From: Geminicoccaceae bacterium
GTDB lineage: Bacteria; Pseudomonadota; Alphaproteobacteria; Geminicoccales; Geminicoccaceae
Reading direction: 5' to 3'
NCBI GenBank assembly: GCA_025999455.1
Contig: AP024683.1
Span: forward strand, 3,350,451-3,414,450
DNA length: 64,000 nt
The position numbers were made by a program, and so were the translations under genes. The notes below the pieces were generated by a model, which saw only the letters and a program-made list of their open reading frames with translations, was not told the DNA's origin and ran no database searches. Below, in pieces: positions 32,031 to 42,643 of the stretch. Position 1 is the first letter of the stretch. Each line of letters begins with the position of its first letter.

Positions 32031-32037
<7 letters not shown>
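29941..32037 (-). CDS. flhA: FlhA, flagellar type III export gate
   Basis: A 698-residue export-gate protein of the flagellar secretion system. About eight transmembrane helices occupy residues 20-330, with the conserved FHIPEP-region equivalents VRGDAIAGLLITAINLVGG and SQIPALFVSMAAGLLVTK. The large cytoplasmic domain (about 360-698) contains RIQDNIQLPSTTYVVRIK and the end domain with NEIHPKARLKALGQV. The GTG start overlaps the flbD stop by seven bases. It forms the nonameric ring that receives substrate-chaperone complexes. Confidence 0.96.
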
Positions 32038-33367
<1,330 letters not shown>

Positions 33368-33386
<19 letters not shown>

Positions 33387-37545: not shown

Positions 37546-37818
37546 TCAACGGAACTCTTGCAGCCGCGTGATCCGCAGCCCCACGAGCCCGTGCCGGTCG
37601 ATCAGCCGCTCCCAAGACGCGTATTCCTCGGCCGAAAGGTTGTAGCGGCGGCAGGCTTCCTCGAGCGTGAGGAGGCCGCCGCGCACCGCCGCCACGACCT
37701 CGGCCTTGCGGCGGGCGACCCAGCGCCGCGTCGACGGCGACGGCAGGTCCTCGAGGCGCAACGGCGTCCCGTTGGGGCCGACCACGACCGGCGCTTGCTC
37801 CCTCTCCTGCTCCGACAT
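37546..37818 (-). CDS. sciP: SciP-type CtrA inhibitor (DUF1153)
   Basis: A 90-residue helix-turn-helix protein of the DUF1153/SciP family. Diagnostic text: VVVGPNGTPLRLEDLPSP, RRKAEVVAAVRGGLLTLEEA, YNLSAEEYASWERL and GLVGLRITRLQEFR at the C-terminus. In Caulobacter SciP binds CtrA-activated promoters and blocks them in the swarmer cell. The second ATG (37818) is preferred over 37824 because the GGAG ribosome site sits six bases before it, while it touches the first. It lies between flgE and fliF as in Caulobacter. Confidence 0.92.
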   Translation of the reverse strand: MSEQEREQAPVVVGPNGTPLRLEDLPSPSTRRWVARRKAEVVAAVRGGLLTLEEACRRYNLSAEEYASWERLIDRHGLVGLRITRLQEFR

Positions 37819-37887
37819 CGACATCTCCGTCCCGTCCTTCAGGCGATCCCTCTTCGCGGGTGCTGGCCCGATCCTGGTCGGGGCCGC

Positions 37888-37964: not shown

Positions 37965-39293
37965 TCAGCGCCGGAGCCGGATCAGCTCGTCGAGCATCTC
38001 GTCGGTCGTGGAGATCACCCGGGCGTTGGCCGAATAGGCGCGTTGGGTGATGATCATCTTGGTGAACTCGTCGGCGATGTCGACGTTCGAGGCTTCGAGC
38101 GCGGAGGGTGTCAGCCGGCCGGCACCACCCTCCCCCGGCGCCCGCAGCACGTACTCGCCCGACTGGTCGGAGGCGGCGTAGACGTTGCCGGTGCGCGGAT
38201 CGAGCCCGGCCGGGTTGGGGAAGGTCGCGAGCGCCAGGCGGTAGAGCCGCCGCTGCTGACCGTTGGTGAAGGAAGCGACGACGTAGCCGTCCTCGTCGAT
38301 CGCCACCGAATTGAGCGTGCCGACCTCGGCACCGTTCTGCGAGACGAAGGCGATGCTCGTCGGGCTCGCGAACTGGGCGAGCCCGTCGGTCGTGCCCGGC
38401 TCGCCGAGATCGATGACGATGTCGCTCGGATCGGCCCCGCTGGCGGCGAGCCAGGTGATCGCAGCCCCCTGGGCGCCGGCCACGAGCGGGGTCACGGCGT
38501 TGGTGGCGAGCGTCCCGTCGCCGTTGAAGCTGATCTGGCCGGAAGCGACGAGCCCGTTCGGATGCACGCCGAGGTCGACATCGGCCGGGTCGGCGACGAT
38601 CTCGACGTTCCACACGTTGGCCGCGGGATCTTTCAAGAAGGCGAAGGTGAGATCGTGCGGCCTGCCGAGGCTGTCGTAGATCTGGACGGCGCGGGTGAAG
38701 TGCGGGGCGACACCGCCACCGCCCGCGAGATTGGCCGCCATGTCGCCGGGGTTGTAGGCGCCGACGAAGGGCGCTTGATCGGCATCGAGATTGGCCCCGA
38801 TCGCGACGCGGGTCGACGCGAGGGCGACGCCGTTGACGATGTTCACGTTGACCGTCTCGAGTTGGTTGACGTTCACGGGCGCGCCGTTGAGGTCGAGCCG
38901 CCAGCCCTGCACGTAGAAACCCGAGGGTGTGCGGAGATTGCCGAGGGCGTCGGCCGCGAAATCACCCGCGCGCGCGAAGAACGGCTGGCCGCTGCCGTCG
39001 GGAGCCGGGTTCACGACGAAGAAGCCTTGCCCCACGATCGCCACGTCGGTCGACGAGCTGCTCGACTGGATGAGGCCTTGACTGCCGATCGTGTAGAAGG
39101 CCTGGGCGGAGACTCCGCCGGGCCGATAGGTGCGCGACCCCGGCTCACGGGCGACGAGGCTCGTGAACTGGGCCTCGGCGAGTTTGTAGGCGGTAGTGTT
39201 CACGTTCGCGACATTGTCCGAGATGATGCTCATCGACCGGCTCTGCGCGGCGAGCCCGGTCACCCCGGTGAACAGCGAACCGAACAAGGTCAT
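37965..39293 (-). CDS. flgE: FlgE, flagellar hook protein
   Basis: A 442-residue hook subunit. The N-terminal rod motif SLFTGVTGLAAQSRSMSIISDNVANVNT and the C-terminal EFTKMIITQRAYSANARVIST (both abridged to known conserved parts) form the axial core, with the variable D1/D2 region between about residues 80 and 370. Start at ATG 39293 after a GAGGAG site. It follows flgD by 39 bases and is probably co-transcribed with fliK and flgD from the sigma-54 promoter upstream. The protein is of ordinary length for an alphaproteobacterial hook. Confidence 0.96.
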   Translation of the reverse strand: MTLFGSLFTGVTGLAAQSRSMSIISDNVANVNTTAYKLAEAQFTSLVAREPGSRTYRPGGVSAQAFYTIGSQGLIQSSSSSTDVAIVGQGFFVVNPAPDGSGQPFFARAGDFAADALGNLRTPSGFYVQGWRLDLNGAPVNVNQLETVNVNIVNGVALASTRVAIGANLDADQAPFVGAYNPGDMAANLAGGGGVAPHFTRAVQIYDSLGRPHDLTFAFLKDPAANVWNVEIVADPADVDLGVHPNGLVASGQISFNGDGTLATNAVTPLVAGAQGAAITWLAASGADPSDIVIDLGEPGTTDGLAQFASPTSIAFVSQNGAEVGTLNSVAIDEDGYVVASFTNGQQRRLYRLALATFPNPAGLDPRTGNVYAASDQSGEYVLRAPGEGGAGRLTPSALEASNVDIADEFTKMIITQRAYSANARVISTTDEMLDELIRLRR

Positions 39294-39332: not shown

Positions 39333-40001
39333 TCAACTTTCACTCGTGGGAAGGGGACGTACGGCCTCGGCGGCGATCGGCACGCCGTCGGCCACGAGGA
39401 CGAGACCGCTCTCGCGGGTCTCGAGCGAGTCGATCCGGGTCGTCCGCTCGAGCACGGCTTCGATCGGGCGGCCGGCCGCGTCGAGCGCGGTGACGGTGAT
39501 CCGGTAGAGGCCGGTTGCCGCCCGGCTATCGTCGAGCCGCTTGCCGTCCCAGAAGAAGCGGTTGGAACCGGCCTCGGTGCCGCCGACCGCGCTGTGGATC
39601 AGCCGACCGTCGGCATCGAAGATCCGCACCGTGACGCTCGCCGCGCGCTCGGGCAGCTCGTAGATCGTGGCGCCGCCCTGGGCGTCGACCAACATCCGGC
39701 TGCCGTCGACCCGGACCTCGCGCCCGACCATGCCGAGGGCTGCGCTCGCCGCGCTCGTACGGGTCAAGCTCACGAGCTGCTCGAGCTGGCGATTGGTCTT
39801 CAAGGCCTGCTCGACGGCCGAGAACTGCACGAGCTGGCTCGTGAAGCGCTCGGTGTCCATGGGCGAGAGCGGATCCTGATTCTTCAATTGCGTCGTGAGC
39901 AACTGCAAGAACGTTTCGAAATTGCTCGCGAGGCCGGTCTCCTCGGGCGCGCGCGGACGCGCGACCGGCTGGGAGGGGGCACTCACGGGGGTCGTCGGCA
40001 T
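39333..40001 (-). CDS. flgD: FlgD, hook-capping (scaffold) protein
   Basis: A 222-residue hook cap protein. The start region has ASNFETFLQLLTTQLKNQDPL and DTERFTSQLVQFSAVEQ, the motif that caps the growing hook; VRIFDADGRLI and FFWDGKRLDDSRAATGLYR come from the FlgD tudor/Ig-like domains. ATG 40001 is used because a CGGAG ribosome site precedes it by a few bases; a TTG at 40022 would extend it by seven residues. It lies between fliK and flgE. Confidence 0.93.
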   Translation of the reverse strand: MPTTPVSAPSQPVARPRAPEETGLASNFETFLQLLTTQLKNQDPLSPMDTERFTSQLVQFSAVEQALKTNRQLEQLVSLTRTSAASAALGMVGREVRVDGSRMLVDAQGGATIYELPERAASVTVRIFDADGRLIHSAVGGTEAGSNRFFWDGKRLDDSRAATGLYRITVTALDAAGRPIEAVLERTTRIDSLETRESGLVLVADGVPIAAEAVRPLPTSES

Positions 40002-40018: not shown

Positions 40019-41491
40019 TCAAACCACGAGGTCGAGCAGGCGCAATTCGAGGAGGCGTGCCGGGGCCGGCGCGCTCGGCCGGAGCTCCGGCCCGGCTCCG
40101 ACCGCCTCGGCCCGCGACGACGCGAACCTGCCGCCGCGATGCTCACCGTCCCGCCGCAGACCGAGCTCGAACCCGCCGGCCTCGAGCTCAAGACCGCTCG
40201 CGGTGAAGATCCGCTCGAGCGTCTGCTGCTCGCGCTGGAGCAGCTCGAGCGTTTCCGGACGATCGACCAGCACGAGGGCGCGCGCCTTGCGGCGGCCCTC
40301 GCTCGTGAGCGTGACCTCGACGCCGCCGAGCTCGGCCGGCTGGAGGGCGATCCGCAGCCGTTCGACCGGAACCCCGTCACGCTGCCAAAGCGCGGCCGCG
40401 ATCTGCACGCTCGCGGGCGGTGGTGTCGGGGCGTAGGGCCGTGGCAGTGCGGCGGCGTCACCCGACGGCCGGCCGCTGCCGATCTCGGCACCGGGTGCGG
40501 GATCGACCGACAGCGCGGCGTCCACTGCCAGGGGATCGGACGGCGCCGCCGGATCGAGAACGGCGCCGGGCTCTTCCGGAGCCGACGACGTGTCGGTTCC
40601 TGACGGGGCGGGTGAGCCCTCGCGCCGCGACGGGAAGACTTGGCCGATCGCGGCGGGCGCGGCGGGTGGGTCGATCGTGACGGACGCGGTTCCGACCAGG
40701 GCCGCTCTTCCGGCAGGCTCGTCCTTCGGCGTGGCGTTCGCCGTGGAGGTGCCCTCGATCGGGTGGAGCGGGTCGGCCGCGAACGCGTCCGCATCGTTGC
40801 GATCCGGCCGCACGAGCGGCCCGCCGGGTTCAGGTCGAGGCGGGCTCGTACCCGAGAACGACAGCGACGCTTCTTCACGTCCCGCAGTGGCCGAAGCGAG
40901 GGCCTCGCCGCCGGGCTTCTCCGGGGTGCCCGGCGCAGGATGCCGGAGGCGATCGGCCTCGATCGCGGCCGTGGCTGCCGGATCCGGATCGATCGGCGGC
41001 GCCTCGGCCGGGGCGGAGATCGGAACTGCGCTCGACGGGGCGTGCGCGATCGGGCTCGCGGCCGACGTCGAGGACGAGGCGGGCGCGCCGAACCGCCAGG
41101 GTCCAGCGGGATCGGCGGAAAGCGGCGCGTCGGCCGGGATCGGCCCCGACCCGGCCCGGGAGGGGGCCGAAGCGGCGGGCGAAGAGTGAAGCGGGGCCGC
41201 CGCGAAGGCGTCGCGCGCACCCGGCGATCGCACGGGCGACGGCCCCGAGAGCGGCATCTCGGGCGGCACCTGCCCGGCCGTGACCAACGTGCCGAGCGAT
41301 CCCGCGACGACGTTCTTGACCGGCTGCGTCGTCGCCGACGGCCCGCTGTCCGGCGGCTCGGGGTTCGCCCCGGCGCCGGGGCCCGCGACGGTCGCCGCGC
41401 CCAGGAGCGCGAGGAGCAGGGCGAAGCCGTCGGCGCCGGCCTCGCGGTCGTGGACGCGGGACCCGGCCGAGGTCGGCGGGGTCGTGGGCAT
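40019..41491 (-). CDS. fliK: FliK-like hook-length control protein
   Basis: A secreted hook-length ruler of about 490 residues. Most of it is low-complexity Ala/Pro/Gly/Ser sequence, typical of FliK. The conserved C-terminal switch domain (about the last 110 residues) has ALWQRDGVPVERLRIALQPAE and LGGVEVTLTSEG, then a basic end. Three in-frame starts exist: 41539 lies inside the sigma-54 promoter and can be excluded, and 41515 would leave a leader of about five bases. ATG 41491 is therefore preferred. It is first in the fliK-flgD-flgE operon. Confidence 0.82.
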   Translation of the reverse strand: MPTTPPTSAGSRVHDREAGADGFALLLALLGAATVAGPGAGANPEPPDSGPSATTQPVKNVVAGSLGTLVTAGQVPPEMPLSGPSPVRSPGARDAFAAAPLHSSPAASAPSRAGSGPIPADAPLSADPAGPWRFGAPASSSTSAASPIAHAPSSAVPISAPAEAPPIDPDPAATAAIEADRLRHPAPGTPEKPGGEALASATAGREEASLSFSGTSPPRPEPGGPLVRPDRNDADAFAADPLHPIEGTSTANATPKDEPAGRAALVGTASVTIDPPAAPAAIGQVFPSRREGSPAPSGTDTSSAPEEPGAVLDPAAPSDPLAVDAALSVDPAPGAEIGSGRPSGDAAALPRPYAPTPPPASVQIAAALWQRDGVPVERLRIALQPAELGGVEVTLTSEGRRKARALVLVDRPETLELLQREQQTLERIFTASGLELEAGGFELGLRRDGEHRGGRFASSRAEAVGAGPELRPSAPAPARLLELRLLDLVV

Positions 41492-41530
41492 CGGTGCTGC
41501 GGTCGGCTCGAGCATGGCGCCGACCGGGTC

Positions 41531-41546
41531 GCAAGCCACGTGCCAA
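41531..41546 (-). promoter_or_regulatory. Near-consensus sigma-54 promoter before fliK
   Basis: On the minus strand the site reads TTGGCACG-TGGC-TTGC (41546 to 41531), a perfect match to the core TGGCACG-N4-TTGC with the exact GG-N10-GC spacing of the -24/-12 elements. Transcription would begin near 41519. It is in the gap after the hydroxyacid dehydrogenase gene and points at fliK-flgD-flgE. FlbD, a GAFTGA-type activator, is encoded about 8 kb downstream in the same cluster. Confidence 0.88.
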
Positions 41547-41656
41547 CGGCGCAGAGCCGCGATTTCCCGCGCCGGGGCCGCCCGGAGCCGGTCCGCGACC
41601 GGGAAGCTTCTGCCGTACCGGGAAAATTTCGCCGAGCGCGGACGTCGCCGAGCGGC

Positions 41657-42643
41657 TCAGAGCATGCTCGGCAACACCCGGTCCGGGGGGCGGTGACCGT
41701 CGACGAAGGTCTTGATGTTGATGATGACCTTCTCGCCCATGTCGAGCCGGCCCTCGATCGTCGAGGAGCCCATGTGCGGCAACAGCACGACGTTGTCGAG
41801 CTGGCGGAGCTTCGGGTTGATCGCCGGTTCGTGCTCGAACACGTCGAGGCCGGCGCCGGCGATCTCCTTGTCGCGCAGCATGCGGGTGAGGGCCGCCTCG
41901 TCGATCACCTCGCCCCGGCTCGTGTTCACGATGATCGCGTGCTTCTGCAAGAGCTTGAGCCGTCGCGCCGAGAGCAGGTGATAGGTCGCGGGGGTGTGCG
42001 GGCAATTGACGCTCACGATGTCGACCCGGGCGAGCATCTGATCGAGGCTCTCCCAATAGGTCGCCTCGAGCTCGGCCTCGATCGATTCGTGGACCCGCCG
42101 GCGGTTGTGGTAATGGATCGAGAGGCCGAAGCCACGCGCCCGGCGGGCGACCGCGGTGCCGATCCGGCCCATGCCCACGATGCCGAGCCGCTTGCCCCAG
42201 ATCCGATGACCCAGCATGGCCGTGGGCGCCCAGCCCTGCCACTCGCCGGAGCGCGCGAGCCGCTCGCCTTCGACGAGCCGGCGGGCGACGGCGAGGATGA
42301 GCGCCATCGTCATGTCGGCGGTGTCCTCGGTCAGCACACCCGGCGTGTTGGTGACCGTGATCCCGCGTTTGTAGGCGGCGTCCACGTCGATGTTGTCGAC
42401 ACCCGTGCCGTAATTGGCGATGAGCCGCAGCCGCTCGCCGGCCTGCGCCAGGATCGAAGCGTCGATCTTGTCGGTCACGGTCGGAACGAGCACGTCGCAG
42501 CTCTGCACGGCCTCGACGAGCTGGGCGCGGGTGAAGGGCCGGTCGGTGGCGTTCAAGCGCGTGTCGAAGAGCTCCATCATCCGCGCTTCGATGGGCTCGG
42601 GGAGCTTGCGGGTGACGATCACGACGGGGCGGGGACGCGGCAT
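41657..42643 (-). CDS. D-2-hydroxyacid dehydrogenase (glyoxylate/hydroxypyruvate reductase-like)
   Basis: A 328-residue NAD(P)-dependent D-2-hydroxyacid dehydrogenase. The Rossmann motif GIVGMGRIGTAVARRARGFG is near 150-170, and the catalytic Arg, Glu and His are in NTSRGEVID, DVFEHEPAIN and LLPHMGSSTIEG. The full wording NYGTGVDNIDVDAA suits the glyoxylate reductase/D-glycerate dehydrogenase group. ATG 42643 is used because a GGAG site precedes it. The gene is divergent from an SH3 protein; the exact substrate cannot be told. Confidence 0.92.
   Translation of the reverse strand: MPRPRPVVIVTRKLPEPIEARMMELFDTRLNATDRPFTRAQLVEAVQSCDVLVPTVTDKIDASILAQAGERLRLIANYGTGVDNIDVDAAYKRGITVTNTPGVLTEDTADMTMALILAVARRLVEGERLARSGEWQGWAPTAMLGHRIWGKRLGIVGMGRIGTAVARRARGFGLSIHYHNRRRVHESIEAELEATYWESLDQMLARVDIVSVNCPHTPATYHLLSARRLKLLQKHAIIVNTSRGEVIDEAALTRMLRDKEIAGAGLDVFEHEPAINPKLRQLDNVVLLPHMGSSTIEGRLDMGEKVIINIKTFVDGHRPPDRVLPSML

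Follow-up and report, generated by a model that had tools for sequence, protein, structure and literature searches.

The upstream region of fliK very likely carries a promoter at 41546-41531 (minus strand) that would be driven by RpoN and FlbD, with translation of fliK starting at ATG 41515 on a leaderless or near-leaderless message. The promoter, its conservation, the position of the ATG and the register of the reading frame were derived from sequence analysis and comparison of genomes. The arrangement of promoter and activator is already known; the new part is probably the near-leaderless fliK.

Sigma-54 promoter upstream of fliK

The sequence at 41546-41531 of the minus strand is TTGGCACGTGGCTTGC. 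This is a sigma-54 core promoter (-24/-12) of the form TTGGCACG-TGGC-TTGC (41531..41546), matching TGGCACG-N4-TTGC exactly and with the spacing GG-N10-GC. No other exact match to this core was found in the window, that is, the whole stretch of 64,000 nt that was analysed. The genome encodes RpoN (PF04552, E 2.5e-62). In the complete genome (a single contig of 3,762,466 bases) there are four exact matches, all intergenic and each facing a downstream gene on the same strand, as judged with our own simple gene caller. Downstream of the four sites are fliK and genes for a urtA-like periplasmic binding protein, an ABC ATPase and a DUF4332 protein, the last at a distance of 168 nt. Thus the genome scan that had been proposed as a check for other late flagellar genes did recover four exact sites, that of fliK included, but the other three are non-flagellar. 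The site upstream of the binding protein gene (L004, G000:C1:3332145-3332159, minus strand; PF13433, urtA-like by eye) reads TGGCACGTGGTTTGC and differs from the fliK site in one base; this gene is perhaps under nitrogen control.

The motif by itself is weak evidence for a promoter. In an order-1 Markov model trained on the composition of the window, 1.03 exact matches are expected per genome, and 1.5e-5 on the correct strand of the 110-nt gap upstream of fliK. With at most two mismatches the window contains 16 matches versus 18.33 expected, and with at most one mismatch the genome contains 63 matches versus 69 for the reversed pattern. As the core is not enriched at the latter level, the case has to be argued from position, context and conservation, not from counts.

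Among the genomes compared, the taxonomic order to which the window belongs is represented by this family only, with 28 genomes at least 85% complete. The flgD gene was found in 25 of the 31 Geminicoccaceae genomes, and 23 loci were examined besides the window. In 24 of the 31 genomes fliK is preceded by a sigma-54 site at the corresponding position, namely in this genome, in 20 of the 23 loci, and in G012, G021 and G030. The automatic search detected 19 of these 24; the other five are G005 and G010, which were added separately, G012, whose weaker site ending in TTGG was recognized by eye, and G021 and G030, found by pattern. In G021 and G030 the contig breaks off within the gene, leaving 327 and 53 codons, respectively, and these genes were therefore named fliK from the N-terminus and the setting; the 327-codon fragment of G021 has no Pfam match. 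No sigma-54 site was found before fliK of G026, and among the 31 genomes G006, G011, G016, G022, G025 and G027 gave no assessable locus. In G022, which belongs to the same genus and is 99% complete, flgD was not found, so the flagellum may have been lost within the genus.

In other Alphaproteobacteria, a scored site, mostly of the TGGCCCG type, was found before the gene preceding flgD in 53 of 75 loci (80 named loci minus five duplicates of family genomes); several of the 22 loci with no scored site are cut by the contig end ahead of the fliK start. All 72 frames from the two sets match PF02120 at E <=0.01, as do the frames of G005, G010 and G012. The identical search with the reversed core yielded none of the 24 family loci and three of the 75 others, and 20 permuted cores yielded at most three loci in either set, compared to 19 family and 53 other loci for the true core. 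The near matches, being no commoner than those of the reversed pattern, would fit a chance origin of the fliK site. However, given its repeated occurrence at the same position, the behavior of the controls and the tiny expectation in the gap, coincidence is hardly credible. Judged by its sequence and conservation, the sigma-54 promoter before fliK is real, and it is ordinary for its class.

The gene upstream of the gap of about 110 nt encodes a dehydrogenase (41657-42643) and lies on the same strand. One possibility is that fliK is mainly transcribed from farther upstream, for instance by read-through from this gene, on a message with a long leader, the sigma-54 promoter being secondary. The short gap and the common strand would allow that. 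However, the sigma-54 site stays beside fliK while the upstream gene changes between genomes: G021 and G023 have a dehydrogenase gene there, G012 has dksA, and so, as judged by eye, has G030. This makes read-through as the main source of the fliK message very unlikely, and transcription from the sigma-54 promoter itself is the preferred reading.

The hook operon and candidate FlbD sites

The genes fliK-flgD-flgE are a Caulobacter-type hook operon. They encode the hook-length control protein FliK (40019..41515, minus strand; PF02120; 498 aa from ATG 41515), the hook cap FlgD (39333..40001, minus strand; PF03963, PF13860) and the hook protein FlgE (37965..39293, minus strand; PF07559, PF06429, NF004242 over the cut-off). 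They are followed by sciP, encoding the CtrA inhibitor (37546-37824, minus strand; NF051866 over the cut-off), which lies in the flagellar cluster between flgE and fliF, and then by fliF, fliG and a fliN-type gene (PF01052). Further downstream are flbD, flhA, an flhF-like gene and a gene for a ParA/MinD-type ATPase. The gene order of this cluster is presumably that of Caulobacter.

The likely activator of the fliK-flgD-flgE promoter, as suggested by sequence, is FlbD (32031..33386, minus strand). It contains the sigma-54 activator domain PF00158, PF02954 (HTH_8) and GAFTGA at residue 195; no receiver-domain match was found in it. Its best NCBIfam match is NF050807 (FlbD), covering residues 1-439 at 698.2 bits versus the cut-off of 750. 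Four strong sigma-54 activator domains were found in the genome, and in the window PF00158 was found at flbD only (G000:C1:3382979-3383473), in agreement with the first-pass annotation, where FlbD was named as the sole sigma-54 activator of the window and a member of the same cluster. The genome also encodes FliX (PF10768, 99.6 bits versus the cut-off of 25).

The region upstream of the promoter contains a direct repeat, D2, whose two copies are read as putative FlbD sites. The first FlbD/ftr-like site, CGGCAGAAGCTTCCCGGT (41598..41615, minus strand), has a counterpart in most family promoters; the second, CGGCGAAATTTTCCCGGT (41617..41634, minus strand), is 19 nt from the first. The repeats themselves, CGGCAGAAGCTTCCCGG and CGGCGAAATTTTCCCGG, lie upstream of the promoter at distances of 70 and 89 nt. 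Many relatives have a fuller palindrome CGGCA-N5-TGCCG in the equivalent region. The palindrome or its asymmetric variant was found in 18 of 21 family promoters, versus a mean of 1.14 and a maximum of 5 in the Markov control; neither form was found in the promoters of G014, G010 and G008. Among 60 pieces of coding DNA, nine contain the strict form and none the asymmetric one. With at most three mismatches, the asymmetric pattern has 220 matches in the genome versus 413 for the control. It is thus unspecific genome-wide, and the FlbD-like sites are argued from position and comparison only.

Five late flagellar sigma-54 sites were chosen as sites with at most one mismatch before a flagellar gene, those of fliK, two flagellins, flgF (named by its place before flgG) and flgI. 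An FlbD-like repeat is present upstream of all five, and upstream of one of the three non-flagellar exact sites, the urtA-like one. In five congeners the right half of the FlbD-like site of fliK is of the TTCC(C/G) type and not TGCCG, whereas other late promoters of the genome have a fuller palindrome. The TTCC(C/G)-type half is perhaps a feature of a weaker, fliK-specific enhancer. The two flagellin genes (L007, L008) are about 2.4 kb apart, and both of their sigma-54 sites have one mismatch.

These observations suggest the following scheme, in which FlbD binding and FliX control are predicted. The RpoN holoenzyme would bind the -24/-12 element at 41546-41531, and FlbD would activate it from the paired sites about 70-90 nt upstream, in the style of Caulobacter class III promoters. 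FliX would tune FlbD once the early flagellar parts have been assembled.

Start codon and leader of fliK

In Caulobacter, the RpoN motif of spmX is described at -26 of the mapped transcript start (PMC4287350). If -26 is the first base of the motif, then +1 lies 13 nt past the GC, and by this rule the A of the fliK ATG would be at +4 in this genome and at +1 in G002. According to the same report, Caulobacter RpoN motifs range from -35 to -25 relative to mapped starts (PMC4287350), and thus +1 may vary. Here transcription would begin about 12-13 nt past the -12 GC, at approximately 41518. This would place ATG 41515 at the 5' end or within about 5 nt of it, hence the leaderless or near-leaderless reading. 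The fliK leader predicted from the promoter position is 0-5 nt.

The first-pass annotation held that the promoter settles the gene start as ATG 41491. Its premises are correct: GTG 41539 does fall inside the promoter, ATG 41515 and ATG 41491 are both in the fliK frame, and ATG 41515 is only a few bases (about 4) past the expected transcript start. However, its dismissal of ATG 41515 as too near the 5' end is countered by the many leaderless mRNAs mapped in Alphaproteobacteria. There are 375 of them in the report on Caulobacter crescentus (PMC4117421) and 171 in that on Sinorhizobium meliloti, every one of the latter with an AUG start (PMC3616915). A review likewise places the AUG of leaderless mRNAs at the 5' end or close to it (PMC9031893).

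The most likely fliK start codon is ATG 41515 (41513..41515, minus strand), 15 nt past the -12 GC. Of the 24 family genomes with a site, 19 have an in-frame ATG 12-16 nt past the -12 GC (16 from the main comparison, plus G012, G021 and G030), and the start codon is ATG in all 19. In the remaining five the distance from GC to ATG is longer: 35 nt in G004 and G005, 47 in G007, 46 in G008, and 51 or 60 in G009. In all five readable species of the genus, this one included, numbering from the position of ATG 41515 puts DGFA, the earliest conserved motif of FliK, at residue 29. Thus the length of the N-terminus is unchanged, although the intervening residues differ.

ATG 41491 (41489..41491, minus strand) is probably internal codon 9. 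In the four other readable congeners this codon is CTG, ATC, CTT and CTC (Leu, Ile, Leu, Leu), whereas here it encodes Met. In G020, the nearest relative, the next in-frame ATG, GTG or TTG after the conserved ATG is codon 200. The Phe of the DGFA motif (residue 31) is identical in all 72 aligned FliK frames. Its distance from the start, counted by hand in leadered relatives, is 31 in G004, 31 in L101 and 34 in L098, versus 23 from ATG 41491. This invariant Phe31, part of an FxxLL-type motif in the otherwise poorly conserved FliK, perhaps belongs to an export signal.

Translation from ATG 41491, driven by the same promoter, would imply a leader of about 27 nt. This codon is 39 nt past the GC, close to what is usual for the best-pairing start outside the family (median 41 nt past the GC, quartiles 36-47, 53 loci), and in five family genomes the leader is indeed longer. 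As this species has both ATGs, dual use is conceivable. However, besides being replaced in all four congeners and lying outside the 12-16 nt range of the conserved ATG, ATG 41491 is preceded by weak anti-Shine-Dalgarno pairing, -2.5 kcal/mol versus a median of -5.8 outside the family, the latter taking, at each locus, the best-pairing start among as many as four. Such energies were set aside for starts very near the promoter, as they include untranscribed bases. The conserved ATG, the DGFA register, codon 9 and the spacing of Phe31 are together hard to reconcile with ATG 41491 as the only start, and we consider this alternative unlikely. Thus the assignment of the start to ATG 41491 should be reversed in favor of ATG 41515, which comparison of the genomes makes the most likely start of fliK.

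Judged by the median of 41 nt, other Alphaproteobacteria mostly keep a fliK leader. Outside the family, an in-frame ATG is found 11-17 nt past the GC in two of the 53 loci (L144 from Hyphomonadaceae and L165 from Elioraea). Two further loci have an ATG just beyond this range, at 10 nt in L126 and 18 nt in L127, each with a later, better-pairing GTG. In the genome analysed here, with +1 set 13 nt past the GC and starts taken from our own gene caller, the leaders of the other late flagellar genes are about 80 nt for the two flagellins, 13 nt for flgF and 50 nt for flgI. All four have a Shine-Dalgarno-like sequence before the start, and among the five late genes fliK alone has neither leader nor Shine-Dalgarno sequence. 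The flagellin leaders are long enough that they could allow FlbT-like control. The ATG codons of flgD and flgE are preceded by GGAG and GAGGAG, respectively. The predicted mode of translation is thus one in which fliK would be translated without a Shine-Dalgarno sequence, and flgD and flgE of the same operon would use their own Shine-Dalgarno-like sequences.

A search of the 31 family genomes for a sigma-54 site followed by 12-16 nt and an ATG gave 28 matches, versus none for the control. Thirteen of these are fliK, those of G021 and G030 plus eleven already known. The remaining 15 include nine with a frame shorter than 100 codons and one (L186) inside a called gene. In L182, L184, L187 and L189 the frame runs into a longer gene with a later called start, and in L188 the ATG is the called start. 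In the latter, from G024, a permease gene (PF02653, urtB-like by eye) begins 13 nt past an exact sigma-54 site. Thus a few other near-leaderless sigma-54 genes, L188 included, may exist in the family.

In a midpoint-rooted tree of FlgE and FlgD, for which 44 of 77 loci were usable, among them 22 of 24 family loci (L081 and L082 are absent), the family loci cluster together. The near-leaderless form is spread over the family, the basal G001 included; longer leaders occur in genera g5 and g6, the g6 genome G008 being absent from the tree. On the simplest reading, near-leaderless fliK would have arisen once, close to the family's root, with leaders extended twice later. In most of the family, the sigma-54 transcript of fliK is probably leaderless or nearly so.

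Comparison with known systems

Our estimate only leans towards the stronger evolutionary statement, that in Geminicoccaceae the fliK promoter has come to lie no more than one or two codons from the gene and FliK would therefore be made from a leaderless sigma-54 transcript. No description of a leaderless fliK was found in the titles and abstract openings of the literature searched, which was covered in part. If the statement holds, fliK would escape translational control based on a Shine-Dalgarno sequence or a leader, and FliK and the hook protein, although encoded by the same mRNA, would be supplied separately. In Caulobacter, an excess of FliK is reported to reduce motility and flagellin, and Lon to keep FliK in check (PMC8545394). 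By analogy, the harm done there by an excess makes separate control of FliK supply plausible. The family, with 19 near-leaderless and five leadered fliK genes, provides a natural comparative set for the effect of the leader on the amount of FliK. Besides correcting a gene start, the case is a warning not to exclude start codons for their proximity to a predicted transcript start, as in Alphaproteobacteria such codons can be genuine.

The predicted fliK message resembles the leaderless mRNAs of C. crescentus and S. meliloti in having AUG, not GUG or UUG, at or near the expected 5' end and no Shine-Dalgarno sequence. The 5' ends of those mRNAs were mapped by sequencing, whereas that of fliK is derived from the promoter and corresponds to a leader of 0-5 nt, not strictly 0.

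The closest parallel is the hook operon (fliK/flbG) of C. crescentus. A fliK-lacZ fusion is described there as a class III reporter whose expression is lowered in the absence of fliX (PMC3096577), and FlbD is reported to bind ftr sites (PMC3930126). As in that operon, there is a sigma-54 site here, along with an FlbD-like activator and FliX, and sciP adjoins the hook genes. Unlike most loci outside the family, the Caulobacter hook operon being compared by its description, the ATG of fliK lies here 15 nt past the GC of the promoter.
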